Below the pieces are notes generated by a model. That model searched no databases. It worked only from the letters and a program-made list of their open reading frames with translations, and was not told where the DNA came from. 64,000 nucleotides of DNA from assembly GCA_903813345.2 (NCBI GenBank), contig CAIIXF020000007.1, positions 22,307,564 through 22,371,563 on the forward strand. Direction: 5' to 3'. A program made the position numbers and the translations under genes. The stretch comes from Owenia fusiformis. Lineage: Eukaryota; Annelida; Polychaeta; Sabellida; Oweniidae. Of this stretch, positions 836-27,247 are shown in pieces (within the stretch, counting starts at the first letter, position 1; the number at the start of each line of letters is the position of its first letter).

Positions 836-910
836 ATGAGGAGTCAACAGTTTTTGTCAAAGTCTGTCGGATCTTTGGATAACGGCATTGGGTTCTGGTC
901 TCATTTTGAG
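836..910 (+). CDS. Candidate alternative first coding exon (25 codons) of the ARHGAP21/23-like gene
   Basis: Seen: an ATG opens a 25-codon frame that begins MRSQQFLSKSV, ends GFWSHFE, and stops exactly at GAG|GTAGGT, a good donor. The exon ends in phase 0, the phase needed to join the first PDZ exon at 26618. The peptide is hydrophilic with an aromatic C-terminal end, and the composition is less AT-rich than the flanks. Inference: a distal alternative first exon giving one version of the N-terminus before the PDZ domain. Against it: the splice would span about 25.7 kb, there is no homology I can name, and short ATG-to-donor ORFs occur by chance in sequence like this. Confidence 0.35.
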
Positions 911-1526
911 GTAGGTTTACAATTACATACATAGAATATTAGTTGTCAGATTCATGTGCTATTCATTCACAGGACATGTATTTCTATTTTAGCAAAATAT
1001 GTTGTTGGTACTTTTAAAAGATGTCACTGCTAATGTAAAAGCAATGTAACCCTAGTTCTGTTTTTCAGACAAGCAAATGATTACCTTTACCTTTAAATCA
1101 CCCCCTCTTTATTGCCTATATATTATTTATAAGATATAAAGAGGGGGGTTTTTTGTAAGGAAGGTGATATTAGCTTTGGCCCAGAGATTGACTTGGTTGG
1201 GTCTTGTCTCAATTTTGTCACCAAATTTCATTCCTACCCCCACTAACTCGGTAGTTACCCTGAAATCCTAAGCCCATAGCAAGAAAAACAAATATTCAAT
1301 TTTGATGCTGTTAAGATCTTACCGAGACCCAAGGTAGCTGATCTTGGCCTCTCATGGAAGTTTCACAATGAACGAAATGCCAGCTACTTATGAAAGGTTA
1401 AAAATCTGTGACTGTACTTCTGATAGGGTTACTCAGATTTTTGATCAAGCTTATTATATTCCAAGAAGATGAAAGGATTATGTGTGATGTAATTCAAAAT
1501 GAAGCGCTCTTTTAAGTTAGCAAAAA

Positions 1527-1650
1527 TCAACTTTTTTTGTGGATGTGTTCATCATTTGGCGGTTGGCATTCAGAGGTTGGTGTTTGGCAGTCAGCATTTG
1601 TGACAAATGGTAGGTGGTGACATTTTGCATGTTAATGCCTCCTCTTTTCT
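1527..1650 (+). repeat. Dispersed element with TAGGTGGTGACA end (copy 1)
   Basis: The segment runs from AACTTTTTTTGTGGA through GGTTGGCATT and GTCAGCATTTGTGACAAATG to TAGGTGGTGACA and TTTTGCATGTTAATGCC. The same order of words recurs at 26507-26592 (shortened) and 33241-33345, with weaker copies near 3355 and 28836. No ORF is present. It is likely a non-autonomous DNA element. Confidence 0.5.
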
Positions 1651-3767
1651 GTCATGAATACATTTTTTTGAAAGTTATGAATCATTCTTGAATCAACATG
1701 GTAAATACCAAGATCCTTGAGAGTAATCTACTCAGGATTCTGGAAATATATCTTCTTTCATTTCATGTATGCTGAAGACTCAATTAACTTTTTCGGATTC
1801 AACATTGGATTGATATACGTATATTGAACTGTTTTGCTTCGTTTTATTTTATAAAGATGAAGATAATGATGCTAAGATATTTAGTATGATCCTTGTCTCC
1901 TCAATCCACGTGAATCCTTCAAGTGAAGTCACATGGAGTTGACCCCAGAGTCTTGTTTCTCTATTTCTGTCTATGATGTCATTGAAAACCACAAAGCTAA
2001 CCACACTGCATCAGCTCCTTTTTTCATCATCATTTCCTCTAAGATTTGAAAACAGTTTCTTTATTACACAATTTTGTGGTTTTCCAAAGGCGCACTCATC
2101 TGTCATTTATGTAAGGTCACCGCCAAGCTGACATTTTGGTGCGTTCTATTTACCCTGCGTGCAGAGTCTAGTTATAAACTTCCCTCTGCCTAGTATAGAC
2201 TATATTATAGTTTAGCAGCCCCACCCCAAAGAATGGTGCCTGTGACAGCCCGGATAATAAATCATTTCAAATCTACCACGCTGACCCTTTCTCAACCAGG
2301 CAGCGAAGTGGAAGGAACACGTGCTAAATGCGTGCTCATTAACTATGCGGTGATTTCAGAAAAAATGACCATATAGAAAGTCATCCATATTTCGACGACG
2401 AACTCTGATAGGCTTGGGGAGATCAAAGATTTATTGTGAACTGAAAGAGTGAAGACAAAGCTCTCTTTTAAGAAGTGAAGTCAAACGAATGCAAAGGGTA
2501 CGTTTTATTGGAAGCCCTGAAAAGAAAGAAAAGGAGGCAAAATTTTACATTTTCGAAATAGGATTGCTTAGTCCTGCAAACACTTGAAATAGGCTTGAAA
2601 CCCATTTGCATCTTTTGAAAATTGGATTTTGGAGAATTGACAAATATTACAACATTCTTAAATGAGAAATTGGTACTTTGGCGGGTCATTTAGCAGAGAC
2701 AAGACCCTTTCAAACTCAGGTGTGAATAAGCTAATCTCAGTATGTCATCAGCATTTTCCGGAAATTCCATGAATCCAAAGAATAGCTGTTCTTTATTGAA
2801 GCCATCCAAGATCAAAGAAAATATGAAAAAATCAATGATTATTTAATCTCTGAGTCTTTCCATAGCTTGTACCATCCAGTCTATCCAAAAATGACTTATC
2901 CTGAAATGCCAGTTTACCCATGAAACCATTACTTGTCACATGACCTCTTTTGGCCTATTGTAGTAAGGATTCTAGATCATGAATAATGAGAATCATGGTA
3001 CTGGTATGTTTCTTTCTTCTGAAGTACATTCTTGTATGGTTTACCTATATCTTTGTTGATCAGATGTGATGTTCTCCCAGCCCTATGTTGATTTTTCTCT
3101 GACAGAAAGAGCAGAAACCGTCAAAGACATTTAACTCGCAATTAATCCAAGGAAAACATGGAACATATTCAGCATTTTTGGCATTACAACTGATGAAAAG
3201 TGTCTATACAGTTGTTAATGATGTATGCCTATGCCATTCTGGGTAGAATTAATGTTCTGCATGACCCTCCCCCCCCCCGTTCTTAAATTAAATTAAATAA
3301 ATTAAAGAATTGGTTTTTATGTTATCAACATGAAGTGTAACATCATTACATTTTATAGCCAACATTTTTGTGACCAACTTTTGGCATTCAGCAGTCAGCA
3401 TCTGTAACAAATTGTCACATACTGTAACCATTTGCTCTACATTACAAGATTGTAACATTTTATAACATTTTACCATGCTGATCGCTGTCTGTTCATTACG
3501 CACTTCATAACTTTATTTCTTGTATATTCCTCACTTGTTCAGTGTGTTTCTTTATTGTAAACATACCATGTATTGACAAACATGATATTTTGTTTTCCTT
3601 GTGTTTACTTTCCACTTGATTGCCTTAATCTGCTTCTTGTTTTACATCTCCACAAAGGAACTCTGCTGTAGAAGTCTGTTCGATATACGAGTATTTATTT
3701 GTTTCTACTACGGTTCGTCGTGCTTTAAGTTTACCAATTGAGCTTTGCAACTTTTAGTGTTCTTGTG

Positions 3768-3812
3768 CTTGTTTGTTTGTCTGTTTGTTTGTTTGTTCGT
3801 TTCTTTGCTTGT
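3768..3812 (+). repeat. (TTTG)n microsatellite, imperfect
   Basis: A run of TTTG units (TTGTTTGTCTGTTTGTTTG and similar) with a few substitutions. Simple repeat, no coding content. Confidence 0.8.
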
Positions 3813-6800: not shown

Positions 6801-6902
6801 TACTGTGCAGTGTCATGGTGACAGAATACTCAACATTGGGAATATAAGTCATTCACCAGTCATTGGATAATTTTACATTTCATTCTCCATGAGTCTGGGA
6901 TC

Positions 6903-6974
6903 ATGCAGCGATTCTGGGTCGACTACCAGCCCTTAGATGAAGAAGAGTGGCAGGCTTCCCTCGTTAAGTTTCAG
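6903..6974 (+). CDS. Candidate alternative first coding exon (24 codons) of the ARHGAP21/23-like gene
   Basis: Seen: an ATG starts a 24-codon frame beginning MQRFWVDYQPLDEEEW and ending LVKFQ, which runs to CAG|GTAGGC. It ends in phase 0, matching the acceptor phase of the PDZ exon at 26618. The segment is visibly richer in G and C than its surroundings and the peptide is strongly charged and aromatic, unlike random AT-rich translation. Inference: an alternative first exon encoding a short acidic N-terminus. No homologue is recognised. Together with the segments at 836, 19350, 23260 and 26031 it forms a phase-consistent set. Confidence 0.45.
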
Positions 6975-7045
6975 GTAGGCCTTTGATAGTCTTGCATAAA
7001 GCCCATTGAGTAACTACCTCCATTCTGATACTCATCATATATTTC

Positions 7046-7186
7046 TGTTTCACTCCCAATATCACATCCTCCGAACACAGGGCCCCAGACATCATCCACT
7101 AAGTTCCTTCCTTCTTCCAAGAAGAAGGAGGTACGAGTTTTGGAGGCTTGTGTTCGGAGGATGCAATATCAGGACTGAGAAGAAAT
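7046..7186. repeat. Long imperfect hairpin element (TIR CATCCTCCGAACACA)
   Basis: The left arm contains CATCCTCCGAACACA (about 7066-7080) and the right arm its complement, TGTGTTCGGAGGATG-like (about 7149-7163). The similarity extends outwards through ATATCA and TCCTGATATT. A second palindrome, CCTTCTTCCAAGAAGAAGG, lies at the centre. The 60-codon ORF across it merely translates the hairpin. It resembles a foldback MITE. Confidence 0.6.
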
Positions 7187-7576
7187 AAGATGTCATGGTT
7201 TATTAGTATGAACTCCCTCCATAACAGGCTAGCATACTGACCCTTTCATGGGTATTAGGCATGGGGTGCAAAAGCCCCACAGCAGCAGGTAGAAGTCATG
7301 TAATTTATGTAATTTACAGTGAAAACATTTATAAAATGGGTTTATTCAAAAGAGGTAGATTTTGCATTTAATGCCTCTTGCCTTAAAATGAAAGAGCTAC
7401 ATACTACATGCTTATACTGGGTCACGAGTGAGGTAAAATGTAGAGTGGAGACTTGATTCAAAACTAGGCTCTTTAGAAATGTCATATTTATTGAATTTGA
7501 TTGAAAAATATATTACAGGGTTTGTCATAAAACCTTTGATAACCTTTGATAAGATAACATAAACATGTGTGTAAAG

Positions 7577-7624
7577 TCAAGGTCATAAAAAGGTCATTGA
7601 ACCCCAAGGTCAAAAGAAAGGTCA
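7577..7624 (+). promoter_or_regulatory. Cluster of AGGTCA nuclear-receptor half-sites
   Basis: Four AGGTCA half-sites lie within 48 bp: TCAAGGTCA (7577-7585), AGGTCA (7591-7596, a direct repeat with 5-nt spacer TAAAA), CCAAGGTCA (7604-7612) and AGGTCA (7619-7624). TCAAGGTCA and CCAAGGTCA match the extended half-site known for NR5A/FTZ-F1 and ERR receptors, and DR5 is the spacing known for retinoic-acid-type receptors. Function is inferred from motif only. The cluster lies about 600 bp downstream of the candidate exon at 6903 and could simply be a degenerate tandem repeat. Confidence 0.25.
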
Positions 7625-8523
7625 TTGATTTAATACTGATAGGCCTATTGTTAATCAACAGGCCTCTTAAAAATCAGCAGCATTTCTGAAGGTCAATTTT
7701 TAAATCCAAGGTTATAATAAAGGTAATTAACAAAAATCTTGAGATGAAAGTCAAATTTACAGAATGTCAAAAGAAACAACATATGCCAAAGTCATATATT
7801 GTTAATAGCAGTATCACTGTTAAAGGAAGGGTCACTATTCTTCACATTCTTGTTAAATGACCGAGGTCAGTTGTAGTAATTTTACCGAGAGACATATAAT
7901 ATTATTATATGTCACTGTTCCATACATAATGCTGGTGAGAAAGTTCAATCGAAAGAGTAGAGGCTGTGGTTATCACAATGGTTTGAGGTAGGAACAAGTC
8001 AAGACAAGTCAAAATCCAAGAAAATTCATTGATTTTCTGAAGAACTCAAATAAACAAATTTTTCTTCACTAATTCTTCTGCACGAATTAAGCCTGTAAAG
8101 AAATGGAATGTTTTAAATGCGTTTTATCCTCACATTACATTTGCACTTGATAACCCCATATGTCCACATCGTAATTAGCTGACAAATTTTCCATTTCAAA
8201 AGTCAACATGTGATGGAGAAATAGTTTTCTTGGGGATTCTTTTCGACGATTTTTTCTTGCATGTTGTCTCATTTTGACAGAGAGTAGGTCGCACTCTTTG
8301 ATTAAATATTTTAGATTCAAACCAAATAAATTGGCCCAGGCTCATTGACTCAACTGAAAGTATCAAAAATCTCACAGACATTTTATTTTAAGTGAAATTC
8401 ATTTTTCATCCTCATAAAGATGGCATGACAGTTGTCAAGCTAAACCCCAACTGATTCCTTTCCTAGATGGCAGGAGTTGTATGAGTCTAACTGGAAGCAT
8501 TAATGCATCTGAAGATGATAGCC

Positions 8524-8634
8524 TATCTACAAGCCCATGTGACCCCCCCAACCACGCACCTCCCTTTGTGTGAGAAGGTGTGTAGTCAAGTAGTCAGAGG
8601 AGGGGGGGGGTCACAGGGGCTTGTAGCTAGACTA
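8524..8634. repeat. Foldback element with C-tract/G-tract arms
   Basis: The left arm CTACAAGCCCATGTGACCCC pairs with the right arm GGGTCACAGGGGCTTGTAG, including a C run near 8545 and a G run near 8605. An ACCTCCCTTTGTGTGAG / GTGTGTAGTCAAGTAGTC core lies between them. A related element occurs at 20014-20135. No coding content. Confidence 0.6.
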
Positions 8635-11267
8635 GTATCATAATCAAGCTATTGGAAAGGATATTTCTGTATAGCATTGAAGCAGCATAATTATTGTGCA
8701 CCAATTTGAAAATCAATTTGTACATTTGAAAAAATATGAAACATCGAGATATAATTTGACCAGCTTTAGACATTTAACCCCTCCCCTGTCTCTATTTTCA
8801 GATTGGTTAAGTAGATACAACAGGATGAGATGGTTCAAGATATTTCATGCAGGACCATTACCAGAAAAATGAAATGAGAATTTCCAACATATTGAAAAAA
8901 TTCAGGGGAAACCCCTATCTTTTGTAATAAGTCATCATGGTTAATTTTTTCATTATTTGCTAAGATGGTCTTAGTTTCCAATTAAAACCTTTCCCGTCTT
9001 GTGTAATCTGGGATTTCAATAAGCAAGTGAGTAATGGACTGTAGTTTTTTCTATGCATTTCATTACATTAGTTATCCCCCTCCCTCTCTCAGACTACTAG
9101 TAATGTATACTACCCTCTCACTAGGACCAATCATTTGACAATTGATGTTCAACCAATCAAATAGCACTACAAAGAAATGTGAGCATTTGTATAAGGATCC
9201 ATTGATTGACCCTTGTAAAGACTGCATGTTCATTTTTTAAATCAGCTGATTGGTTCATTGAGTTTTTAGGTTTATCTGTTGTATAAAGAGTTCAATCACT
9301 CTTATGATTTTGCAAAGGGTTGTCATGTCAGATGTTGAATGAATTGATGACTTGACAATTGTTGTTTACTCATCTCAACTCTCAATCTATTGTCTATCTT
9401 CTAATAAATTATCATGTTAAAGCAAAATATTACAGTTTGGTTAAAGTACAGTTGGTTGTTGTTGAACTTGCAGTTTCTTGTTTGTTATAATTGCTGTTTG
9501 ATTTATCATCTGATAATATGTCTTCTAGACTCATGTTTTGCTATTAAATGTGACACTTCATCAGATTAACAAAGCCATTTATGATAATTGTGGTATATTT
9601 TCTGCCAAAAACAAGAATTGAGTGTGAGAATCAGACATTTTATTAAAGCATCTACAGGATGTCCAGGAAATAAAGTTTCAAGTACTGTTTAATCTGAAAG
9701 TGGAGTACAGTTGACGTTATAGGATAAGATATTTCAGCATTGATTTCATTTGTATTGTATCAAAGCTCTGCACCCCCCCTCCTGTCTATTTCATTACGCA
9801 GAGTTTTAGGGCATTATTCAGATGAATACAACCTTTCCAAAGCCAGTGGTCTCTAGTTTATTAAATATAGATAGATAGTTGGTTGAGATAGAGTCTTGAT
9901 TCAAAATTGATATACTATATTGGTACTGTTTGTGTGAGGAGAAAGGATGTACAGTTTTTTTCCATTCTGAAATATTCATTCAACACATTTTTGATTTCAA
10001 AGGTATGAAATTTTCCAGAAAGTGAAGTGTGTTTACCATTCATTTTCAAAATCTGATTCACTGATTATTTTTATCTGTCTGGTGATTTAATCCCCGCATT
10101 GACCTATGCTATGGTTACAAATATGTTTATTCAACCCACAAAACTTATTTTGATGGCTATTTTTAGCACAGAAACTGTGTTAAGAGATAGTCTGAAACCC
10201 GAAGTGAAAGATAGTTGATCTAATTGGGAATGATACCTGCCTTTGAAATTCATTTTCTTTTGCTGTGTTTAATAGAGAGGGTCAAACATTCTTCTAGTGG
10301 AGTTGCAGTCTTACTTAACACGTATCAGTGATCTTCACAAGATTTTTTCTCAAGTGGGTGCAAAATTCTCATTTTTCATGATTTTTTCATTTTCAAGTGG
10401 ATTTTCAGGTGGGTGCAAGCCTATTTTCAAAATCTCAGGTGGGTGTTCCGCCTACTTGTTTTAATGCTGGGGAGATCACTGTGTATTGTTAGAATACCAG
10501 AAAATCTGGGCTTCTGTTGATCTCCAGAAGGTTGAAATTGCTGAAAAAGAATATACATACCAGTATGTGTGCAGTTCAGTGCAGCATTGGATGTGCTAAT
10601 CTTGTCTATAAGCTCAAACACAATTAATAAGGAAGTGAGATAAAGTAATGAAATTAATTCACTTCCTTAAAATGTATTGAAATGTTGATAATCCACAACC
10701 TGTATGCCATTCTGACAGTCATCGCATTTCTTTTGTTTTCTATTTGAAATTTTTATATAAAAGAACAGAAGTTTATGAAATCCCATGATGGTCCCCCTTA
10801 TCAAATTTCTATACAATTCACAAGGTTTTACTTGCTCCAACTTATAACCCCTTGAAAGTTGAAGATGCTATAACTAGATGTTTTATGATTCAAGGCTGAA
10901 ATATCACCATTATACTTTTGAGACTACTCCTGATTGGTTTCAGGTATATACTGACATAACATGATGAACTGGTTGGAATGATGAACCAATATCCAATATA
11001 AATATCCGAGATAGAAGAGGAATGTAATAAGCACATACTCTAGGTTTAAACATGGGGTGCATGCATGTTAGAATGGCCTGTGTCTCATATCCAAACAGTG
11101 AGATTCTGGTTCTGATGTGATTTAGCAGCAAATATACATGTAAATATGGTAACATTTTAAAACACTGAGTTCAGTGGTAGGATTTTACTTCTGGATTTCA
11201 GGTACCTTGCTTGTCAGAGCCTATTATGATGTAGATGAAGTTCTCTTTTAAAGAAGCATAACTAAAC

Positions 11268-11454
11268 TACAGTAAATCCTGTCTTAGTGAACACCTCACT
11301 CTAGTGAACACCTGTGTCTAGTAAACACCTTTTCTCAGCACATACTCCATGCATTGACATCTGTATAAAATTACCATTCAGAAATGAACACCTACCTACA
11401 GTGAACACTCTTACGCGGCTCTATAGGTGTTCACTGTATACAGGTTTTACTTTA
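11268..11454. mobile_element. MITE-like element with TACAGTAAAWCCTGT ends and GTGAACAC units
   Basis: The left end, TACAGTAAATCCTGTCTTAG, leads into AGTGAACACCTCACTCTAGT and further GTGAACAC units. The right end, GTGTTCACTGTATACAGGTTTTACTTTA, is approximately the inverted left end. The same architecture is clearer at 51149-51543. There is no transposase, so it is presumably non-autonomous. Confidence 0.5.
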
Positions 11455-11663
11455 TTGGAAAATGTAAATCTTACGATACTATACACTAAGATATGGTCTG
11501 ATAACATAAAGGTATAGGGTGCATCCAAGAATAAACTAAATATGGGATTAGTGACGTAACATATACATTATCATCAAAATTGTACCTTACATTTTCTTGT
11601 ACTTTTATCTGAGAACCTCGTTAGTGGATTTAGATATACAATCCAGAAAAGTATAAGGCTATA

Positions 11664-11981
11664 CTAAAGGATCTCAAACTGAAAATAATGCCAGTGTATA
11701 TGGTATAGGACCCCATATTGACCCCCCCCCACCCCTGTCCTAAGTACCGATGTTACATATAAGATATCATCAAAATTATACTTCACAGTATTTGTATTTT
11801 TACCTGAGAACCTCGTTAGTGGATTAAGGAGCTCAGGTAAATCGTGGAATGTATCTGTAAGGATTATCTCACCTGTGTTTCTGATATCTATATTTAACTC
11901 ATCAAAATTTGATACCATACCTGTCAGAACCAATGATTGTTTGAAACCAATAGGAATTTTAATGTATATTGATGTTAGCAT
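11664..11981 (-). CDS. Unrecognised minus-strand ORF (105 codons), possible exon or gene relic
   Basis: An ATG-initiated frame on the minus strand runs 105 codons. It begins MLTSIYIKIPIGFKQSL and contains FHDLPELLNPLTRFSGK. Composition is balanced rather than low-complexity, and an internal TCAG|GTAAAA could be a donor after NPLTRFS. The DNA around NPLTRFS and the following NFDD is duplicated just beyond the ORF (about 11553-11635 on the + strand), where the frame is broken by stops. No family is recognised. It may be a real exon of a nested gene, a decayed copy, or a chance ORF. Confidence 0.2.
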   Translation of the reverse strand: MLTSIYIKIPIGFKQSLVLTGMVSNFDELNIDIRNTGEIILTDTFHDLPELLNPLTRFSGKNTNTVKYNFDDILYVTSVLRTGVGGGQYGVLYHIHWHYFQFEIL

Positions 11982-12788
11982 GTGTTTATCTATGGTTAAT
12001 GGTTATTCTTCCTGATGTTTTTAATCCTTGTATCTTCCCCTGTTTAAAGTGTCCGTTTTATTTAACACTTTTTATGACTTTTTGAATAAGGGCACCTATT
12101 TATTAAAATTCTGATTCAGATGGGAATTTCGCCATGATGTCAGATTATGTATTTTTTAAGAATTTCTCTTTATTTCATGTTTTTGGGAAATGACAGTCTA
12201 TTAACATAGAATTTTTATCATAGGAATACTCGTATCTGATGTTTCAAAGTAAGTCTGTGAATCTAAGTTTCAATCTCCACCAAGTCGCCATTTTTGAAAG
12301 TTTCAGCGAGGCTGAAGATTGGTCAGTTCGTCACATCGAAAGAATATTGCATCAGATTATATAACCTCAGTTGCGCAAAAATTGGATGAAAACTTTGAAA
12401 TCATGAAACAATAATGTTATAAAATTTGGGCTGTTTTTAAGTGACATATGAATCATATGAAATCTTGATAGGAAGAAGTATGTGATTGGTGTTTTTAAGA
12501 AAGTAATACAGGACTGGACTAATAAAAAGATATAGGTATTAAAGATAAATCAACAAGTCTTCAGGTAGTGAGGATATGAAGAATACTGCATAGATATTGG
12601 ATATATATATCTTTTTATCGACTCTTTAGATGTCATATCATGACATATTAGTCACTTAGGTAGAGCAGTTCTTCCCATTGTCGAGTTGAAGAACTGGTAT
12701 CTTTATCCTGGCTAGAACCATAGACAATTCTAGCCAGCGGATAACATTTATTTATACTTCATTAGAAATTAAAATTATACAGGATACA

Positions 12789-12806
12789 ATGAGCTGGGGA
12801 ATTAGG
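12789..12806 (+). CDS. Weak candidate first exon (6 codons)
   Basis: ATG AGC TGG GGA ATT AGG is followed directly by GTAAGT, a near-perfect donor, and ends in phase 0 as the PDZ exon at 26618 requires. The predicted peptide is only MSWGIR. With six codons, a chance match is the likelier explanation. It is listed because of donor quality and phase. Confidence 0.12.
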
Positions 12807-13799
12807 GTAAGTAAGACTTTATTTACATTTGATGGACTTATTGCTCCTAATGCAAGATCTCATAACTCTTTTTTTCAGTAACAGATTTTTTACAATTGAC
12901 CCAGAACTGTCAGTTTATAATAAATCAAGCTGGGAATAATGGCAGTGATGACCCATGTTTATTTTAACTAATTTGTTAGTGTCAGATTAGCATACTCCCA
13001 GCATATTTCCTCTTCCAGTAATTGAGTACAAAAATGGAAATTGGGAATTATTGCTTTCATTCAAAAGTCCATGAAAAATCATGGAAAGCAATATGATTAC
13101 GAAGAAATGTAAAAATTCTAGGTAGAATAAGAAGACATTATATGTTTAAAAGACTATATAAGTAAATGTTTCATGCTAGCCTGATGTTTACTTACTTGAC
13201 GTACCTTTAGTCAGAAAAAGTAGTTTGAGAAAAAAAATTGTTTAATAATGAATGTGTTAAGATATATGGAATCCTATCAGAAATGTGAAATATATTGTTT
13301 ATCTCTACTACAATGTGATATCTGTATATAAATCAATATAGACAATTTGCTACCTACTCAACTTAATGTGTTCATTGAAATATAGGTGTTCACCTGAGAT
13401 TGGTGTTCACTAGACAGATGTGTTCACTGGAGAAAAGTCTTACATACGCAAGTGTTGCCATACCCAAGTAAACTTCAAAGGTCTTGCTCGATAAAGCATA
13501 AAACCAAACCAGAATGTTTACAGTAACTAGAAGTAGCAACACTTTAAAGTGAAAATCAAACCATCTTAACGTTTCTCAGTTTCTATTATTGTTTCAATTA
13601 CGATTACTGTGCAAGTTTTCTAACTTAAGGCGGCACCACTTCCCTTGTAGATTAAGCGATATCTTTAGTAAATTCCTTACTTCTCTGTAACCTCATTGCC
13701 TTGTAAATTACACCTTTTTGACTTAGTTAATAGATAAGAATATAAACAATCCCTAATTGAAAACTATTGTTATCACAGTGTTAACCACATCATTCTTTA

Positions 13800-13870
13800 T
13801 ACAAGTTGCGTTTGACCATGTTCACTGAGTGCTGACCTCGTTCACTGAGTGCTGACCACGTTCACTGAGT
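13800..13870 (+). repeat. Short tandem TTCACTGAGTGCTGACC
   Basis: Three near-identical 26-bp units built on GTTCACTGAGTGCTGACC. It probably derives from the GTGAACAC-type repeats, a reverse-oriented stretch of which lies at 13376-13435. Confidence 0.6.
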
Positions 13871-13877
13871 GCATTTA

Positions 13878-13910
13878 ATGATTTTGATCTCTCCAGATCT
13901 GAATGGCTCG
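13878..13910 (+). CDS. Weak candidate first exon (11 codons)
   Basis: ATG opens MILISPDLNGS and ends at TCG|GTGAGT, a strong donor, in phase 0 compatible with the PDZ exon at 26618. It abuts a tandem repeat on its 5' side and is very short, so confidence is low. Confidence 0.15.
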
Positions 13911-13931
13911 GTGAGTTCAGAAAATTGTTAA

Positions 13932-13992
13932 CTAAAGAGTGAAGATGAAGCTCTCTTTAAGAAGCGAAGTCGAACAAATGCAAAGGGTACTG
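13932..13992 (+). repeat. GAAGCTCTCTTTTAAG dispersed element
   Basis: It contains GATGAAGCTCTCTTTAAGAA, then GCGAAGTCGAACAAATGCAA and AGGGTAC. Similar sequence lies at about 2448-2505 and 47420-47475, and in opposite orientation at 50996-51055 and 54955-55030. No ORF. Confidence 0.55.
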
Positions 13993-15915
13993 TATTTACC
14001 TCTTTTGAGACTGAATGTTCTGTCTTGTAATTTGTAAAAATAGGTTGAAACTACTATGAATGATCCTATGTATATGAATAAAGAATCACCCGAATTTAAA
14101 CCAAATTTTGGGACCTGTGCAAGAGACTATCATTACATTTTATTTTGCTCATATTCAATAACAAATCATAAAACTCAGTTTTTATTTGTAAAAATAGGTC
14201 GAAACTATAATTATCATTGAATTGATTAGTGAGTTAGTACCGCATGTTGATATTGATATAAATACAAAAGTATGCCTTTGTTAACTTAATAACATTAGCG
14301 GCATAGTAAATATTAAAAATATAACACAGGAATTTACACAATTGATAAGTCATAAATCACTGTAATCTGTTTAGAGCTATTTATTTCAAGTGTATCGTGT
14401 TGTTACTTCATTGGTAATAGGTTGATAAGAATAACTAAAAACAACATTTCAAAGTTCATATTTCCTATTTTAGTAGCTTTAATTGATTTCAAATTATCTC
14501 TAAAAACTATTTCGAATAAGCACTTTGATTTTGAACAAAAATATAGTTTAACGGTATTGTTGAGAAAAGATTGAAGCAGGTTTATAATTGGTTTCATTCT
14601 CCTTAGTCTTTCCTTTTTATATGGTAAGCCCTAACATAGATTACAAATCAACCTGAGACAGGGCTTGCATTAACGGCATCCCGTACATGTTAAGGACTCA
14701 AAAATAATTTGGAGGACGCAAAAATTGAAAATATTTCCGTTTTTTGGACGCAATTTTTTTTAGGTCAATACTACAATGTGTTTACAATGATACCTAACAA
14801 AAACAAATAATTATGATCTCTCACCTTTATTTGAATCGTAAATAAGGCTCAACATGTTGAATATTTACAAATTATCATGGTTCTCTCGAATTTTTTCGAC
14901 TTTGTTTATTTTTAGATTTGAAACCATGACACCCCACAGTTTTTCCTATTCAGAAACAAATATTAGGTTATTCATGAAATAAAATGTATTCATTGTCGAA
15001 TGAAAGAACATGCATTTATTCAGTCCGTACTTAACGTTTACTTCCGTTTTAAATTCGCGGCAAGAAATCAAAAACTGAAAGGTGTTTTGGAAAAAATGCT
15101 TTTAAAATAAAGTTATACCTCGAAACAGGCTAGAAATAAGGGACACACTTTTTTTTCAAAGGACACACTTTTTAAAAAAAATTGCGTCCTTGGGACTCAC
15201 AAATTTTCTAACCTAATGCAAGCGCTGTGAGACAAGGATTTGATGAAAATATCAGTGAAAAGCTAGTATATTTGTTCGAAAATGATGGGAGGAAGGATTC
15301 TGCTGAGGGATTGCTATTCCTAGCATTGCCCTGGTGTTTTTACCCAAACAACCACCCTGTAAAAATAAACATGACAAACCCCATATAGTACATAATTATA
15401 TTCCACATGAAGTACTAGGGTCAGTTTTCTTGAAATCCCCAAAATAAGGTGTCAACAGTCAAAATTGTTATGTGTGAAAAAGCCCAAAAAAATAGATTTC
15501 TCCAAAAATATTTTCAAATCAGCTCAAATCGCATTCTCTGTGTTGTATAGTTATCCTTAAAGATTAAGGTATTTAGTCAATTTAGAGAGAAACCGAATGT
15601 TAGAAGAACATAGTGATCTTTTAATCTTGGGGGTATTTAGTCTACCCCCATAGTTACTGATTGATAGGATTCATCTGAAATTAAGGATCTGCGATTATTT
15701 GGCTATGTTTAAAGATATTTGGAAAAAAGCTATGTAATTTGAAACAAAAGTCTGGGAATTTGACAGAGATAATTCTCAAAATATATCAGTTCTCCTAAGG
15801 GACGTGGTTGGAGTATATGTTTGTTTTTGTTTTTGGTAATCTCACCTATATATTTTAATATGCCTAATTATAATCCTTATTTTTTCTTTAAAATGAGGAG
15901 ACAAAAAAGAATGAA

Positions 15916-15990
15916 CAGGCAAACAGACAAACAAACAAACAAACAAACAAACAAACAAACAAACAAACAAACAAACAAACAAACAAACAT
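15916..15990 (+). repeat. (AAAC)n microsatellite
   Basis: About 18 consecutive ACAA/CAAA units, nearly perfect. Confidence 0.95.
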
Positions 15991-16337
15991 TTAATTAAAT
16001 CACTTTTCGGAACAAAACATTATCATTTTAGCTTAGCTCCTTAAGGTCAGGTTATGAAATCTATTATATAATTTCTAATTAGATATTGCTCATACAATAT
16101 AATACCAGCATTGTTAAATAAATATGGAGCAAATATATGGTTTAATAAACTATCTAGGATACTAGAAATTGTGTTATCAGTCACATGGTATATTTACACC
16201 AATCAGATTCAAGTATTTTACTCAAAGGACTGTAGAATAATGGGATTGATTTAATAGGTATCAGATACCAACTAACATTTTTCACTGACAGAGAAATTAC
16301 AGTTTCCAACTCTTGCAATCCTTCATAATACTTTTTT

Positions 16338-17380
16338 AGAACTTGGTCAGTGCTATAGATGGACGGGATCATTTGTGTTATGCTTGATTAAAAATGCAAA
16401 TCATTGGTCTCGAATTTTCAAAGGAGGCCTTCTGTTCCAAAATAAGGCCTCAATTTTCGATAATAGGCCTCAATTAGAATGATTTTATTTGTTAATGTTT
16501 TCTATTTACAGGAGTTGTGTTAACAGAGAACTAACATGTAGGACTTATCTTTTGACATTTTTGTTGATATAAAAACCTTTTCAATTTCTTGCCTGCATAG
16601 AATATTTCATGCTTAGTCTGTCATTTTCTCTGCAAATTATTTTTTTTGGTGTTTATGCATTATTTGATATGTATATGCCGATTTCACTCTCTCAATCTTT
16701 TCAGAACTTTCCTCCCCTTAAAGTTTTTGGTAGAAAACCCAACCATCCTGTGGTATGTATTTTATGTCTGGTTATATTTCAATATGTATGGTTCCCCTGT
16801 AGTGATCACAATATGGTTTTGTCTAGAGAGGTGCAAGTCTGCAGTATGTAGGTTACTTTTTCAGAACTTGGTCAGTGCTATAGATGGACGGGATCATTTG
16901 TGTTATGCTTGATTAAAAATGCAAATCATTGGTCTCGAATTTTCAAAGGAGGCCTCCTGTTCCAAAATAAGGCCTCAATTTTCGAAAATAGGCCTCAATT
17001 AGAATGATTTTATTTGTTAATGTTTTCTATTTACAGGAGTTGTGTTAACAGAGAACTAACATGTAGGACTTATCTTTTGACATTTTTGTTGATATAAAAA
17101 CCTTTTCCAGTTTCTTGCCTGCATCGAATATTTCATGCTTAGTCTCTCATTTTCTCTGCAATTTTTTTTTTTGGTGTTTATGCATTATTTGATATGTATA
17201 TGCCAAGTTCACTCACTCAATCTTTTCAGAATTTTCCTCCCCTTAAAGTTTTTGGTGGAAAACCCAACCATTCTGTGGTATGTATTTTATTTCTGGTTGT
17301 ATTTCATTATGTATAGTTCCCCTGTAGTGATCACAATATGGTTTTGTCTAGAGAGGTGCAAGTCTGCAGTATGTAGGTTC
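16338..17380 (+). repeat. Two-copy tandem duplication, 525-bp unit
   Basis: AGAACTTGGTCAGTGCTATA occurs at 16338 and again at 16863. Sequence stays nearly identical through GGACGGGATCATTTG, the paired AGGCCT motifs and TGCAAGTCTGCAGTATGTAGG in both copies. Differences are few (single substitutions plus a T-run length change), which suggests recent duplication. The 80-88-codon ORFs inside are the same sequence read twice and are AT-rich and hydrophobic, so I do not treat them as genes. Confidence 0.9.
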
Positions 17381-18683
17381 ACAGGTTCAGAGGTTTAGCG
17401 GTTCTGCCAGTCTATGCAATGCTTTGCCTAAGTGTGCCATGGCCTGTATCTGTCAGGCATTGTTGAAACAAAAACATATGGTTTCTGTGCTGTAATGTTC
17501 CCTGCATACATGTAGTTTTTAGTGAATGGATATAACAAGCCAGGAGAGGCCCAAATAGGAAATGAAATTTGGCACAAAGGAGAATAGTTGCTGCATATTA
17601 TTGCAAAGAAGGCACACCATTGTGGATGATTAGGGTGAAAATAAATAAAGCTTTTGATGCGAAATATTTTTGTTATACAAGTTTAAACTAAAGAGTTTGA
17701 CATTGAGATTATAACATTTGTGGAAGATAGAGCTAAACACAAAGGAATGGGCTTCTAAACTTATGGAGACATTACTTGGAGAAGGGCAGACCACTAACAT
17801 AACATAATAGATTTGTGCGATATTGCGTATTACATGAATATAAGATAATTAAATAACTAGCCTAGTTGCAAACAGAGTGACATACCAGTGATATTTTAAA
17901 GAGCAAATTAGGGGAAGAGTAGAAAAGGAAAGGATTCCATGGAAGATGAATCTGAAACAAACTTGAAATTAGAAAGAAAAGGATCTGATGAGTACAAAGG
18001 AGGGCCATGACCTGGAGTATTGTCTGAACTCATTTGAAGTTGTAATACTATATCATAGTAAACTGACTTACTCTGACTTATTTTTACTTCATATTTCAAC
18101 CATTTTTTACAACTCTTACAAACCATCTTGTTAGTTCATCCATCAAGAATTCTTAAGATACTTTTTAAGTTCAATTGAGTATAACTACAAGTAAAAGAAC
18201 ATTAGAGTCAAGTTTAGGACCCAAGGTGAATTCTTCGCAGCTTATACTATTTTCATCTATCCCGAGGGATTTTATAGTAAATATTCCATAGATGAATATT
18301 GAACTGTGGTATTATTATTACATTAATAGACACAAATAGCTATATACTCATTGAGTATTTATTTTCTCGCTCAAGTGTTCTTATTAAGGACTTACAAGAG
18401 GAGGGTAAACTATTGAAAATCACCCAGAAAGCTCTATGTGGATCAAATACACGACTTAACACTGTCATTTTAAGCTTTAAGATATCCATAAAAAACACAT
18501 AGCCTATCGCTGTTGCATTCCTACATACTGTTCATATGTTTGAAGTACTTTCAAACAGTCATATATATACGTATAGCTAGTAGAGCTAGCTAATATGATA
18601 ACATGTTAGGATGCACAATGCCAGGAAGTAAATTCAAAAACCTGAAGAGATGACCTGAATTTGTGGACTGAGTAACTCTATTG

Positions 18684-19205
18684 GATCTATACAACTGTTT
18701 GAGTAGATCTAAATGTACAGCTGTTGAGCAGATCTAACTGTACAGTTGTTAGAGTTGATCTAACTATATAGTTGTTGGATATATCTAATTGTACAGCTGT
18801 TTGAGGAGATCTAGCTATACAGCTGTTGAACAGATCTAATACAGTTGTTGGAATAGATCTAACTGTACAGTTGTTGGAGTTGATCTAAATTACAGTTGTT
18901 GGACATATCTAATTATACAGCTGTTTGAGGAGATCTAGCTATACAGCTGTTGAACAGATCTAATACAGTTGTTGAAATAGATCTAACTGTACAGATGTTG
19001 GAATAGATTTAACTGTACAGATGTTGGATTAGATCTTACTGTACAGATGTTGGAATAGATCTAACTGTACAGATGTTGGAATAGATCTTACTGTACAGTT
19101 GTTAGAATTGATCTAACTATACAGTTGTTGGAGTAGATCTAACTGTACAGCTTTTTAACAGATCTAAATGTACATCTGCCAGAGAAGAGCTGTACACCTG
19201 TTAAA
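18684..19205 (+). repeat. Minisatellite of about 26-bp units with paired palindromes
   Basis: Some twenty units built on TGTACAGTTGTTGGA plus a TAGATCTAAC-like half. Most units carry two 6-bp palindromes, TGTACA and AGATCT. A multi-unit block near 18776-18860 is repeated almost exactly near 18900-18985, so there is higher-order structure. The array ends shortly before the candidate exon at 19350. Confidence 0.9.
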
Positions 19206-19349
19206 GAAGAATCATTTCAACCTGTTGATTAGGATTGAACTGTACAGCCTATTAGCAAAGTCTTAACTACAACATAATTTGTTGAATAAGAATCTTAACA
19301 ACCTGTAAGAGTGGATTTAACTGACAGCAGATCTCAGAACAGAATCAAA

Positions 19350-19406
19350 ATGTGGTTCGGGGTATACTTCAAAAATGATGACGAGAATCAAACAGTTTAC
19401 ATCAAG
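19350..19406 (+). CDS. Candidate alternative first coding exon (19 codons) of the ARHGAP21/23-like gene
   Basis: ATG opens MWFGVYFKNDDENQTVYIK and ends at AAG|GTTTGT. The donor has G at +5 but is weaker than the others. The end is in phase 0, compatible with the PDZ exon at 26618. The peptide is polar, acidic in the middle and aromatic at the start, much like the candidate at 6903. Inference: a further alternative N-terminus. No homology recognised. Confidence 0.3.
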
Positions 19407-20013
19407 GTTTGTAATATATACATTTATAATTTTTAATTGTAGTTTACGCTTGCTACAATTTTTATTTATACTGTGCCTATTAATGAACACAAAATCTCAT
19501 GTGAAACAAAAAGAACAGTGAAACCCCTAAAATGAACTCTTGGAGTCTGGGAATATCTATCTAGCTATTTGAGATGAGAATTTAACATAGGGGCCAATTA
19601 GAGGAATAAAAATGAGGCCTGTAAAAAGTGTTCAAGTTTATTGGTTTTACTGTAGAATATATTTTGAGTGAAATTGCAAAAAATGATGATATTACATCAC
19701 GAAGCTGATAATTAGCCTTTCACAGAAATTTAATTTAAGAGAACAAGAAACCCTGGGTGATATTTTTCTGCCAGAGGACATTGACATTTGTTCCCAAACA
19801 TTGTATTAAAAGCATGTATCATTATATAATAGAATGTCAGTTTATTGGTAATACAGCTGTCCTGACATATAGGGTTGAACAAATATTGGCAGAATATTAA
19901 ATAATTCACTTTTTTATGCTCGATCTACATTGAATCTTAATATTTGATAGCTGGTATGTGTTTTATTCTACAGTGCCTCAAGGTGCTGGTGTTTTACATT
20001 TTAAGCCTGTAAC

Positions 20014-20135
20014 TAGTTTAGCTAGTTTAGGCCCTTGTGAGCCTCCCCCACTATGCAACTCTCCATGTGAGGTCTGTAGTGAAGTAGTTGAAGGGGGGGG
20101 GGGGGGGGGGGTAACACCTTATAGCTAGTCTAGCT
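20014..20135. repeat. Foldback element with long poly-G arm
   Basis: CTAGTTTAGGCCCTTGTGAG with a C run is followed by GAAGTAGTTGAAG, about 19 consecutive G (20093-20111), and CACCTTATAGCTAGTCTAGC. Order and motifs match the foldback at 8524-8634. The G run is a candidate quadruplex-forming or replication-stalling site. Confidence 0.55.
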
Positions 20136-21690
20136 TTTAACTTAAGGGAGACAAAATTAGGGGTTCTACTTTAAGGTGAGGGGTAGGGGGAAAGGTGGAA
20201 TGGTAGAATCGGATGGCTATCTGAGACAATAGCAATGACCAGGGGAACATGCTGAAAAAAACAAGGAAATATACACATTCATCATACAAATACTTTATTT
20301 TTGTACTAGAGAATAACATAGGTAGGTAGAGAATATTATTAAAATGTCTTCATTAAGTCTCAGTTACATTTGATCTATGTTGGGCATACGGCAGCCATAG
20401 CTTCACAAAATCAAAATAGAAAATCTATATCATATTGCTTATCCTTATACTTTATGCGGCATATTTCTCTCGATTTTGGGAAGCTTAACAGCTGTGGTAC
20501 AGTTGCCGTAGATCAAATGTGACTGAGGCATTCGATTCAGCTTAAAATAATATTTTAGAAATAGTGAAAGGTACCATAGATTTTGCTGCAAAAATACAAA
20601 AAGTAAATGAATTGAACTGTGACACCTAAAGTCAACCGATCTTTATTAATATTAAAACAGTCAGTTTCAAAGAGCGCCAAAATATATGGCATGCAATCTT
20701 TTCAATGAATTCTATACTGATCGTATGAATAAATTCTATGATGAATTTGGCATATATTTTCAGGGCCAATTCAAAGCAAACATTTCCTTATGATATCAAA
20801 GAGCAAATTGAGTTTCTTTAGAACTATTAATATTCTACTATGTATACAATTTCATTGATGGTTCTCCATATTAATTTTTGGAAGGTTCGTATATCGGGAT
20901 GTTTTTATGTTGATCGAAATGTCCTTGAATAGTGTCCCATATAAGGAACATGGCAACCTTTTTTCAATTGTTTAATTTTATGGGGCTATAAAATAATTTT
21001 ATTAGATCTAACATATTGTGTTTTAGTACATTTTCAATGTGCTGTTCATACATATACATCAGTTTATATTTCTATAGTTTTTTTAGTCAACATGTTTATC
21101 ATTTCAGTATGTTGAATTTGTGTAGGGAATAAATGCCATTGGATGGATTCCAGGTATCAAAGGTGCTATGATAAAATGAAGTTCTATTCATTTAACAAAT
21201 TAAATTTTTAATTTTTGAACCCTCACGCTGTTTAGCTCATATGGTGAGCTTTTGCAATCACTCACTTTTTAAACAATTTTGATTTTCCATTCACTTCTTA
21301 TACTTTCTCCCTCAAACTAAATGAGTTAATTTTCCTAGAAATGTAATGTCATCTCTATCAATTCTTTAATTTTCTTCAAGAATCTCAATCTTCTCAATCT
21401 TTATGCTAAATCAGGACATTTTAGTGAATTTATACATGAAATGCTATTTTTTGCTGGTTGATTTGAACATCTAATACAAATGATTGTTATCATTGATTTA
21501 TTGCTATTCAAGTGCACTAATTTCAAAAGGGGCCTTGTTGTCATTTTGGGCAGTTGACCAATCCTTGGTGACAAAATCACTCAAGCTCTCAGTTTGTTGA
21601 CTTAGTCAATTTGGATGGTTCATGTTTGACTGAAAAGCTAAATTAAATTGAAACTTAAATCACCTTTCTGTTGTGATCATACTTCACTTT

Positions 21691-21775
21691 TGAATACCTC
21701 TCGACGGTGAACACCTCTCTACTGTGAACACCTCTCTACTGTGAACACCTCTTTATTGTGAACATTTCATTAATG
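21691..21775 (+). repeat. 17-bp tandem units AGTGAACACCTCTCTAC-like
   Basis: Four consecutive, slightly diverged units of TACTGTGAACACCTCTC. The unit length matches the arrays near 24638 and 30158, which are the same family. Confidence 0.75.
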
Positions 21776-23259
21776 TGAAAATAACTTCATGTGTTTCAAT
21801 GCCCATGAGTAGACATATACAAAGATGAACACCTTGATTTGTGAGCACTGACTTTAAAACCATCTCAGGATGGCATTGGAAAATAAGCATTTTTTGCATA
21901 AGAGCTGTTTCCTTAATTTTTTTCCTTTTTGGTCAAACTGCCGTAGTTGGAGCATGGTGAACAAGATATCTCTGGAATTTGTCCACATATTTTGAATTGT
22001 TATGGATAAAACATTAGTCGATTGGTCATTTGTCCAGCATTGACTCCATATTTGCATCATTTTACTGTTCATAATTTGCATTCAAAACAACAACTATATC
22101 AGTTTGTTTATTCATCCAAAATTTAGTTTCATATTTTCCAACTTTAAATGATGAGCAAATGGGAGAAATATTTCTGTTTGAATCACTACCCTATTTGAAA
22201 CTGTGGGAAAAACACTATGAAAATAAAACCACAAGCTTGAATGTCAAATCAAATTCTTGCTTCTGGCAAATGGTTACTCAGAAAAATTTTAAGGCATTCC
22301 AAGTCAAAACATTGCACTAAATACTCATCTTAACTTTTGTTGATAAGTTGTGATGAGCACGCAAGCTATTGTTATATCAACAACTGAGTAATTTTGTGTC
22401 TAACCCTATATTCCCTGAGGATACAAGCTATATTTTTAAACATATTGCATACCTACTAACATAATTATTCTTCATGTTTAATAGATTCAGGATGGTTTGA
22501 TATTAAAATGAGGAATATAGCTGGACAATGAAACCACAATGGTTCAATTACTGTTTTATATAGGACCCAGCGGATGTTTGGATTAAAGGATAGGGCTTAG
22601 AAATATCTGATCTGAAATCTCTCATTGGTGTCTGGGCGATTGTTCCCAATGGAAATTTAGTTCTTTCACAATGGCTTGGTAGTATGGAGAAATATGTATA
22701 GATGGAGAAAGGTAGCTAATAACTGAAGGAAAAGATGTAATAATATTGTAGGAACCCATATAAAATGAATTGGAAGATTCATATCATATCATATACACGC
22801 AGATGGAAAATAAGATGATGATGGTTCATTCTTCTCGCCTATTGACAGACTGAAATACTTTTGATCTGAACACATTAGCTAAAAATATCCCTCTAAAAAC
22901 CATTAAGAATGAACAATGAGGAGAATCCTGAACTTCAGAATTTTCTTAGCTCCGTTCAGCTTCATTAAATGAAAGCAACTCTGCATTTGTGCTATGAAAT
23001 TTATAAATACATTCGTTATAGTGATGTCAAACAAACTCAAAATATGAATGTACATTTATTAATTAACACGTCAAAACTAGCCCCTTGGAGCTTATTAAAC
23101 AATGTACTTGCTCTAAATATAAGACAATAGTAATGTTAGACTGAAGTAGGACTTAAAAAAAACAGAGCAGCCATGACAACAATGATTGTGTCACATTATT
23201 TGAGCGATAACCATAGCAACCTTAGTGGAAACTCAAATGCTATTGGGCCAGATATAAGC

Positions 23260-23328
23260 ATGGACACCTTAGAGAAAGATGTTGTCTGGTTTTTGGTGTA
23301 CAGTCGGAAATATTCTCACTTAGGATGT
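23260..23328 (+). CDS. Candidate alternative first coding exon (23 codons) of the ARHGAP21/23-like gene
   Basis: ATG opens a 23-codon frame beginning MDTLEKDVVWF and ending SRKYSHLGC. It stops at TGT|GTAAGTAG, a full consensus donor, and ends in phase 0, as the PDZ exon 3.3 kb downstream requires. The region is locally less AT-rich than its flanks. The peptide has a mixed basic/aromatic character and no recognisable domain. Inference: an alternative first exon. Chance remains possible. Confidence 0.38.
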
Positions 23329-23907
23329 GTAAGTAGTTATTAAACCTTGTTATTATAGTTATTTGGTATCATCTTGATTTCCATTTTTAAAATGATACCA
23401 GGAGGAAGGAGCCCAAAACATTTGATGATTCTAAGTTTTTAGCCCCCTTTTCAAAAATGTTCCTCCATATTCCAAGAATTTTCAGCCTAATTTTGGCAAA
23501 CTTATTTAGTCAAAAGTTAACATTTTAGGTTTACAAATAAGTAACTTTGCAAAAGCACACTTTGTCTTTTGGGCTCACTTCGAGAAAATAGAAAAGGGAT
23601 GAACATTGAGGACATAAGGTTTTGTATTCCATACCTTACCTACTAAGGTTCTAGGTAAATAGCGAGCGGAGATATATACTGTATCTAGGGATCTATCACT
23701 GAGGAGCGGGGCGGGATGGATACAGCCTGTATCCATCCCGGTCCCGGTCCTAAAAAGAGAATTCGATTTACTTTCGTTTTTCCTATGCATACAGAAAATA
23801 AAGATTATATTTCAATTTTACGAACGTTGTATATTTTAGCAATTCATTGATCTGGTAAGACTAAGAAAATGCGTATTTTTGAATTTTGGAAATTTATAAG
23901 ACAACAG

Positions 23908-23994
23908 GGTTTATCCCTCGGGAAATATGTATATATCCCTAGGTCCCTGTGGTCCCCCGGGATATACAAATATTTCCCTTGGGATAAACCCTGT
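23908..23994. repeat. Long hairpin (palindrome of about 30-bp arms)
   Basis: GGGTTTATCCCTCGGGAAAT on the left pairs with ATTTCCCTTGGGATAAACCC on the right around a CCTAGGTCCCTGTGGTCCC centre. The arms continue through ATATGTATATATCCC and GGGATATACAAAT. ORFs of 93 codons (+) and 66 codons (-) both run through the hairpin. The + ORF (23869-24150) starts with ATG, has an in-phase GAG|GTATAC, and matches nothing I know. Confidence 0.75.
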
Positions 23995-24637
23995 TTCCAA
24001 AACCTCCCAGTACATAACCCTTTTGTTTCTAATGAGGTATACAATAAATTAAATTTCTTTCACGAGAAAGGCAATGATGTTCTGTATTTAATTAACCCTC
24101 CCGGAAAATTGTTTGGTAACTATGATGTTAAGGTTAATGTTGGGACTTAGAAGTGTGGTGCACTTGCCTGTCATTTACAATGAGGCCAATAATGTTGTCA
24201 TATCTTTGTATAAGATAATCTTTGTCACCTTTACAGATTAAACAATCTTGAGACATCATCAGAACATCATTTCACCAGCAATTTAGGAATCCCTCATACA
24301 AAAGGAGAACTTTATTCTATTTGGTTTTTCATTTGCTTTTCTTTTTTCCATTGTGATTGTGAAATCACCAATTTTGACATTTTTGGTACATAACTGATTC
24401 AATTTTCTCAATGTGAATTGAGATGGAGTACATATTATTTGTGTTAGATTTTAATCTATGTTTATATAAAATTTAAGTTGATTAAAAAATGGATTACCCT
24501 TGTTATTTGATCTGCTTTTGGCTGTGGGGATTAGGGGTAGGATTATTCAGGACATTTTTTCTCAGCTGACTTTGGAGAATATAAATGCAATGTACAATAC
24601 GACCTGTCTTAAGTAGAACATCATTGGTACCTCTAAA

Positions 24638-24706
24638 AAGTGTTCCACTAACAGAAGTGTTCCACTTATAGAAGTGTTCCACTTACAGAAGTGTTCCACT
24701 TTACAG
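24638..24706 (+). repeat. 17-bp tandem units AGAAGTGTTCCACTTAC
   Basis: Four units preceded by CGACCTGTCTTAAGTAGAAC, which echoes the CCTGTCTTAGTGAAC end of the GTGAACAC-type elements. A diverged subfamily. Confidence 0.7.
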
Positions 24707-26030
24707 CTATCAATGTAGTTTTATTAAAATAATACTCTTGGAAGTTTAACATGAAAATGTGTTTTTGTCATTGAATATTTGAACTGTAAAAACAGGAAAA
24801 AATCATTTATGGCCTACCTAATTTAATTCACATTTTAAACTCTCTCCATTCCATCGCTCTGAGGTATATATATCATGAGAGGTTTATTAAAAAATATCAG
24901 GAAGGAAGAATTGACATCCATTTTCATGACCAAGATGTGCAAATGTATTGAACTTCAATTTGTAACCCAATCCTTAAATGAAATGCAAAGTTTGTTAAGG
25001 TTTTAAAAATAAAATATCATAATAAACATAAAAAATAGCAATGGATGTAGAAATATGCTGGTAGGAGGCATGATGTTTTAAACATATCTGCAAGAATCGA
25101 AGGATTTTTATTTGAATTTAAGAGAGAAATGGCAAGAAAAAAGTATGGTCAGAGTTACATTTCTCTTATAAGTCACTTGTTAAGGTCCTGATAAGGTTGT
25201 AGAAATAATGTGTAAATGTAAACTTTACATCAGTGTCAAGAACTTACCTGTAAATGAAATATCAAGGTCAGCATTCTTCAGAATGAGGAAAAGCATGATT
25301 TAAAAGAATCTTTTAAGCAATATATAATATGCAGAGGCATAATTTTCATTCTGGTAATTGAATGAAATAATGAAATGCATGCACGTTTATTGAGATTTTA
25401 AGAGACATTTTGTGAGATAAGTAGATCAGAAAGTTCAGTTCAAACAAGGGTCTGCTTACAATATGTGTGAAAATCAAAGAGAATTCATCATTTCAAGAGA
25501 GGATTAGTCCAAGAATTTTGCAAGAGAATTTCTAAATTAAAATCACATAAAGGACGGGTGAATAGGGGTGTACTATTTATATATAGGGCTCTCAAATATG
25601 TCCTCAATAGAGCGATTTCAATAACATAAAGATAAGACTTTATTTATAATATTCTTAAAAGCGGGAACTTGTTTATAAAGAGTGAGGTTCATGTATATAC
25701 AGTACTTCAGTATACTGGACATTATAGGATAGACTGGCAAAATTTTGAAGTTTTAACCATGTTCAATATGATACAAACCAGTGACTATATATACATGGAA
25801 ATATATTGGCATTATATCCATAGATATTCAAATATTAGATATTCAGAAAGAAAAAAATCTATTCATAACTTGTTCTAGTTCTCTTTTATAAATAAACTTG
25901 AATAACTTGGAGTATACAATTAAATTGCTGTTCATGTAAAGGTTCAAGATGGGAAAACCCTAAAATGCATTTTATACAAGAAGGAATTAAATACTGAAAT
26001 ATTACACGGATTTATAGAAATCAGCTAGAA

Positions 26031-26150
26031 ATGTTTGAATATCCTGATAGTCAGAGGCCATTTGTTGTCTGTAACAAAGTAGAGGCCTCCCAGGATGGGA
26101 GTCTTTTTGAGGAGATTATGTTGGAGCTACAGTCACATTATTCTGCATGG
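26031..26150 (+). CDS. Candidate proximal first coding exon (40 codons) of the ARHGAP21/23-like gene
   Basis: ATG opens a 40-codon frame beginning MFEYPDSQRPFVVCNKVE. It contains GSLFEEIMLELQSHYSAW at its end and stops at TGG|GTAGGT. The exon ends in phase 0 and lies only 467 bp upstream of the PDZ exon acceptor at 26618, with which it would splice in frame. The frame is open upstream to a stop near 25996, so an internal exon without its own ATG is also possible. The peptide is soluble, acidic and coding-like. This is the best first-exon candidate by length, composition and position. Family members have a divergent N-terminus before the PDZ domain, so lack of homology is expected. Confidence 0.5.
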
Positions 26151-26506
26151 GTAGGTGTACAGGTAGAGCATGAGAACATGTTCTAGATATAGTAATCGTC
26201 ATGTGCTCCATATGCCTTATATGCCAAAGCCTACAGTGTTAACTTTACTATAAGTATATTCTTTCATACTCATGGTATGAAATTCAAGATTTAGGGGTTA
26301 CAATTTAATTTTAGTTCAAGAAGTTATACTATAGACACAAGAGCAGTTAGAGCGCCCTTTCTAGTATACTTTTTCTATATGTTTTATTTATTACAAAAGC
26401 ACACAAGGAAAATAACCATGAATGGGTCACTTTAAGAGTGTGTATATACCCAATAAGGAAAAATAAATGGAATGCAAGCCATGGAACTGACTTTTGGATG
26501 TTTTTA

Positions 26507-26592
26507 TGTCACCACCAGGAACTTTTTGTGGACAGTGTTTGGTGGTTGGCATTTGGTGGTCAGACATTTTTTTATGTTAATGCCTTGTTATA
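26507..26592 (+). repeat. TGTCACCACC dispersed element (copy next to the first PDZ exon)
   Basis: It begins TGTCACCACCAGGAACTTTT, continues GTGGTTGGCATTTGGTGGTC and ends TTTTTTATGTTAATGCC. It parallels the copy at 1527-1650 with an internal deletion. It ends about 25 bp before the splice acceptor of the first PDZ exon, so part of that exon's 3' splice region appears repeat-derived. Confidence 0.5.
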
Positions 26593-26617
26593 TAATGTCC
26601 CCCTGTTGTATTTTCAG

Positions 26618-27213: not shown

Positions 27214-27247
27214 GAGGGTAGTCTTGATGGGGAATATGATAATGAAG
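27214..27247 (+). CDS. Rho GTPase-activating protein 21/23-like: 34-nt microexon in the PDZ domain
   Basis: Between TTTGCAG| and GAAG|GTAAGT. It encodes EGSLDGEYDNE plus the first base of a Gly codon completed by the next exon (G|GG). It forms an acidic linker between the YPPESAI block and the LEPMDT block, where vertebrate members also carry a variable, Gly-rich acidic insert. The length is not a multiple of three. If it is skipped, the next exon is read GGDVSQGN and then stops, so inclusion is required for the PDZ domain. Retention of the following intron also hits TGA after two codons. Confidence 0.88.

Follow-up and report, generated by a model that had tools for sequence, protein, structure and literature searches.

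By sequence match, a RhoGAP gene of the ARHGAP21/23 type has its 5' part on the + strand of a 64 kb stretch of the genome of the polychaete Owenia fusiformis (contig CAIIXF020000007.1, positions 22,307,564 to 22,371,563; referred to here as the window, with position 1 as its first letter). An initial annotation had listed five short segments upstream of the PDZ domain of this gene as interchangeable first coding exons. We tentatively favour a smaller claim, namely that the segment at 6903–6974 is a first coding exon joined to the first PDZ exon, which starts at 26618, and that most of the remaining segments are open reading frames (ORFs) that run by chance into a GT in AT-rich sequence. As the likeliest first coding exon in the window, 6903–6974 would be spliced across a 19.6 kb intron and would add a short acidic, aromatic N-terminal tail ahead of the PDZ domain.

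Exon 26618 opens with AGT AAC AAA in phase 0, directly after ...TGTTGTATTTTCAG, and has no in-frame ATG of its own, so the protein most likely starts in an exon further 5' whose end is in phase 0. The segment at 6903–6974 (+ strand; MQRFWVDYQPLDEEEWQASLVKFQ) comprises 24 codons beginning MQRFWVDYQPL and runs into the donor CAG/GTAGGC in phase 0; with a score of 10.8 this donor is the strongest of the five. The segment has a guanine-plus-cytosine (GC) fraction of 0.51 and no repeat matches inside the window. Its combined score of 18.2 ranks second of 65 candidates, the first being an ORF inside the minisatellite at 27273–27901, which makes it the top phase-0 ATG-to-donor ORF outside that minisatellite on either strand. 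None of 141 controls reached 18.2 (the highest scored 15.1), and among Markov sequences of orders 2, 3 and 4 this value was reached by two, none and none of 200, respectively. The initial annotation thus contained one good candidate.

The combined score is the sum of a codon score, which compares a general amino-acid composition with the trinucleotides of the window, and of splice scores; the composition and the metazoan donor and acceptor frequency tables are standard values. Candidates for initial exons were the 65 phase-0 ORFs of 15–60 codons on both strands, arrays included; the 22 upstream candidates compared below span the same 15–60 codons. The controls came from the other phases, strand and region, with arrays and known exons removed. 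Calibration relied on 336 internal-exon candidates (arrays removed), among which two known exons of the gene, 26618 and 27214, rank first and third.

The ARHGAP21/23-type gene

The window has about 34% GC and the look of animal DNA, its introns being long and its minisatellites numerous; screens for tRNAs and for Rfam families (at gathering score) found none in it. The PDZ domain is assembled from three exons on the + strand. The first, 26618–26758, runs from phase 0 to phase 0 between an acceptor scoring 10.1 and a donor scoring 8.2. A small 34-nt exon within the domain, 27214–27247, encodes EGSLDGEYDNE(G) (acceptor 11.0, donor 11.5), and the second large exon, 33370–33556, completes the match (acceptor 3.9, donor 12.2). 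A minisatellite with an 18-bp unit in about 33 copies (27273–27901) lies just 3' of the 34-nt exon; the repeat itself accounts for a long open frame on each strand, of 223 and 208 amino acids.

Searched against the PDB, the three joined exons matched human ARHGAP21 (PDB code 2yuy) with an E value of 4.4e-36, the best of 174 matched sequences, the next standing at 2.4e-09. The joined domain shares 74% identity with the letters of the human PDZ domain and retains two of its stretches (19 and 13 residues), and Pfam PDZ models were found on the joined protein (PDZ_6, E value 8.9e-12). The structure match, the Pfam hits and the identity agree in pointing to the characteristic N-terminal-side PDZ domain of ARHGAP21/23, confirming the family assignment of the initial annotation; the family includes Drosophila RhoGAP19D and C. 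elegans PAC-1. A search of 33557–64000 with sequence motifs and a human query recognised no further ARHGAP21-like coding exons, and the PH and RhoGAP domains were not recognised in the window by motif search, only the 5' end of the gene being contained in it. Since no further exon was recognised over this distance, introns of the gene may exceed 30 kb.

Chance level and the listed segments

All five listed segments are present as described, each with an ATG opening 19–40 codons that end at a GT in phase 0, and exon 26618, with its good acceptor, begins in the matching phase. The five peptides are likewise all present, in an order that differs from that of the coordinates. Besides 6903–6974, the set comprises 836–910 (25 codons, MRSQQFLSKSVGSLDNGIGFWSHFE, beginning MRSQQFLSKSV; donor GAG/GTAGGT, 9.8) and 26031–26150 (40 codons, MFEYPDSQRPF; donor TGG/GTAGGT, 7.0), both unproven candidate first exons, together with 19350–19406 (19 codons, MWFGVYFKNDD; donor AAG/GTTTGT, 4.3) and 23260–23328 (23 codons, MDTLEKDVVWF; donor TGT/GTAAGT, 4.3), which have weak donors and are indistinguishable from chance; all are on the + strand. 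The two members that had been listed with weaker support, at 12789 and 13878, do have good donors (10.1 and 9.6) and open only six and 11 codons.

Four of the five fall within the range of the controls: 35, 38, 41 and 64 of the 141 (25–45%) score as high as or higher than 26031, 19350, 836 and 23260, respectively. Taken as a group, the 22 upstream candidates are no better in coding score than the controls (medians -5.3 and -4.4; Mann–Whitney P 0.42), and only 6903–6974 beats them all. The coding score of 836–910 is lower than that of most shuffles of its own bases. None of six candidate peptides matched a Pfam family at E values up to 1, and the 26031 peptide had no PDB match at E values up to 5. 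Collections of bacterial, archaeal and viral sequence yielded no relative sharing this 5' region. The claim of at least five interchangeable N-termini is not borne out by these scores.

The frequency of such ORFs was counted with donors scoring at least 4.2, 19–40 codons and unique donors, in the 26.6 kb upstream and the 30.4 kb downstream. The upstream + strand holds 17 unique phase-0 donors, compared with 8 and 7 for its two remaining phases. The opposite strand holds 5, 9 and 3 in phases 0, 1 and 2. The downstream counts per phase, unscaled, are 7, 8 and 9 (+ strand) and 8, 9 and 6 (- strand), the phase-0 counts becoming 6.1 and 7.0 when scaled to length. Markov models of orders 1, 2 and 3 predict means of 7.2, 7.1 and 7.3 (standard deviations 2.9, 2.7 and 2.5), with none, one and none of 60 sequences reaching 17. 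The nominal Poisson P value is 0.0013 for 17, or 0.003 for 16 when tandem-duplicated ORFs are counted once; because 17 is the maximum over 12 combinations of strand, region and phase, a 12-fold correction applies, giving P of about 0.015–0.04. The excess of phase-0 ORFs on the sense strand is modest, and suggestive. It is specific to the phase of exon 26618, in keeping with the phase match on which the initial annotation had built, and the tens of chance ORFs reckoned there come down to about seven at this donor threshold, with more at looser donors. The five listed segments are a hand-picked subset of the 17 donors, 12 of which were unlisted. A tandem duplication of about 525 bp, with pieces 89–98% identical, occupies 16329–17379.

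Two further hints come from the GC step and the start context. The step in GC over the flanks is higher in the five listed segments, which were chosen by eye, than in 83 controls (P 0.003); a step as large is seen in six of the 83 for 836–910, and in 24 for 23260–23328, whose step is small. The 12 unlisted candidates have a mean step of +0.025, compared with +0.010 in controls. A purine occupies position -3 in all five listed ATGs, in 71% of the 17 and in 49% of controls. Together, the GC step and the -3 purine favour the presence of a few true exons in the set over pure chance, and besides 6903–6974 there are perhaps one or two more true first exons.

Three unlisted candidates were set aside. 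The ORF at 2233–2349 (score 15.0, third) is flanked on either side by a dispersed repeat, whose fragments at 2148–2183 and 2451–2500 match adjacent stretches of 54952–55037; 8503–8577 overlaps an inverted repeat at 8514–8639 (the ORF 8515–8577 ranks fifth of 65, with a score of 13.5); and 7857–7934, although its donor exceeds 9, reaches a coding score of only -7.8.

Repeats of several kinds occur in the window. A dispersed short family with a variable interior, perhaps a short interspersed element or a miniature inverted-repeat transposable element, occurs at 2148–2501, 13898–13990, 50984–51058 and 54952–55037 and contains or adjoins two ATG-to-donor ORFs (2233 and 13878). The donor of the 13878 member, at 13910, lies inside it, in sequence that recurs at 2404–2501 (82% over 98 nt) and, for about 50 nt, at 54952–55001. 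The imperfect inverted repeats at 8514–8639 and 7050–7178 have arms of 36 and 38 nt that are 86% and 79% complementary, and resemble small hairpin elements. Elsewhere in the window, minisatellites at 11285–11330, 21691–21779, 30148–30425 and 51159–51353 have a common TGAACACC-like unit in both orientations, and a 63-nt stretch is duplicated with 100% identity at 58046–58108 and 59834–59896, 1.8 kb apart.

Alternative readings

A number of observations weigh against the proposal of 6903–6974 as first exon with the remainder mostly chance. The second part of it is opposed by the count of 17 where about seven are expected and by the GC step of all 17 upstream candidates, which exceeds that of the 83 controls (P 0.016). 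Concerning 6903–6974 itself, the coding score is carried almost purely by composition, shuffles of its own bases, like those of the known exons, giving about equal values, which makes the test of coding-likeness weak; 72-nt windows with a GC fraction of at least 0.51 account for 1.1% of upstream positions; two further ATGs lie within 100 nt upstream; and the peptide has no homologue in Pfam (E values up to 1) or in the PDB (only matches of E 0.88 and above). The scoring missed exon 33370–33556, only part of which appears, at rank 8, because its acceptor (3.9) falls under the cut of 4; the method is thus shown to have some power and to miss one in three known exons. The true first exon of the gene may also lie outside the window.

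This last point leads to a serious possibility, which we hold to be quite plausible: that every listed segment arose by chance and that the gene's actual first exon lies upstream of the window or is non-coding, with a start not seen here. A distance of more than 26 kb to the first exon is plausible given the long introns of the gene, the motif and query search having recognised no further exon in 33557–64000, and the placing of four segments within controls and the compositional nature of the coding scores would both be accounted for. What speaks against it is that 6903–6974 exceeds every one of the 141 controls and that the phase-0 count is above expectation.

An array proper, in which three or more alternative first exons with their own promoters splice to 26618 and supply unrelated short tails that set the location of the GTPase-activating protein, appears improbable. 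The sense-strand excess in phase 0, the purine at -3 in all five ATGs and the GC step of the 17 candidates are in its favour, as are two unannotated start sites in rat Arhgap21 that are supported by cap analysis of gene expression (CAGE) (PMC9892061). Each of the five has a compatible phase and a donor, as a member of a plectin-type array would, though two of the donors are weak; moreover, the coding scores are no better than those of controls, and the best two unlisted candidates are associated with a repeat and a hairpin, 7857–7934 being let down by its coding score.

It is very improbable that 6903–6974 belongs to an internal exon, such as 6909–6974 (phase 0 at both ends), of a transcript whose start codon lies further 5'. 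The best acceptor nearby, a CAG site before 6909, scores 3.2, close to the 3.9 of the true exon at 33370, so that its weakness tells little against an internal exon; the acceptors of the first two PDZ exons, in contrast, score 10.1 and 11.0, and an A stands at -3 of the 6903 ATG. From this context an initial rather than an internal exon is likely, but not sure. Equally remote is the absence of any upstream coding exon, with exon 26618 extending 5' in a frame that is open from 26351 to 26788 and has an in-frame ATG at 26498 and an additional acceptor-like site at 26519 (score 9.7), since a strong acceptor (10.1) directly precedes 26618, the model starting there ranks first and the version reaching 26519 scores 8.9 bits lower.

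Relation to known first-exon arrays

Plectin (PLEC) is an established case of an array of alternative first exons that encode short N-terminal tails (PMC8468861), and the design is the same as that proposed for the present gene by the initial annotation. According to the same source, the plectin isoforms are supported by transcript data, by knockouts of single isoforms and by mutations in patients, whereas the segments described here are sequence candidates, four of the five looking no different from chance. Such arrays being already known, the present candidate would be at most another case.

Within the family, the passages available on rat Arhgap21 report two novel transcription start sites with CAGE support and state no difference in coding first exons (PMC9892061), and those on PAC-1 mention several isoforms, again stating no such difference (PMC13015541). 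In a search of titles, the beginnings of abstracts and passages that lay mostly outside the subscription literature, the rat Arhgap21 study was the one relevant hit on alternative promoters or first exons of ARHGAP21/23, and none describing an array of coding first exons in the family was found. Cadherin complexes bring members of the family to cell contacts (PMC7927664), a mode of recruitment that would make N-terminal variants functionally sensible.

As it stands, the useful outcome of this analysis is a single junction to test, from 6974 to 26618, together with a measured chance level against which claims of first exons can be set. If the array were true, a polarity regulator that connects Rho-family GTPases with cadherin contacts would, in the manner of plectin, have exchangeable address tags at its N-terminus.

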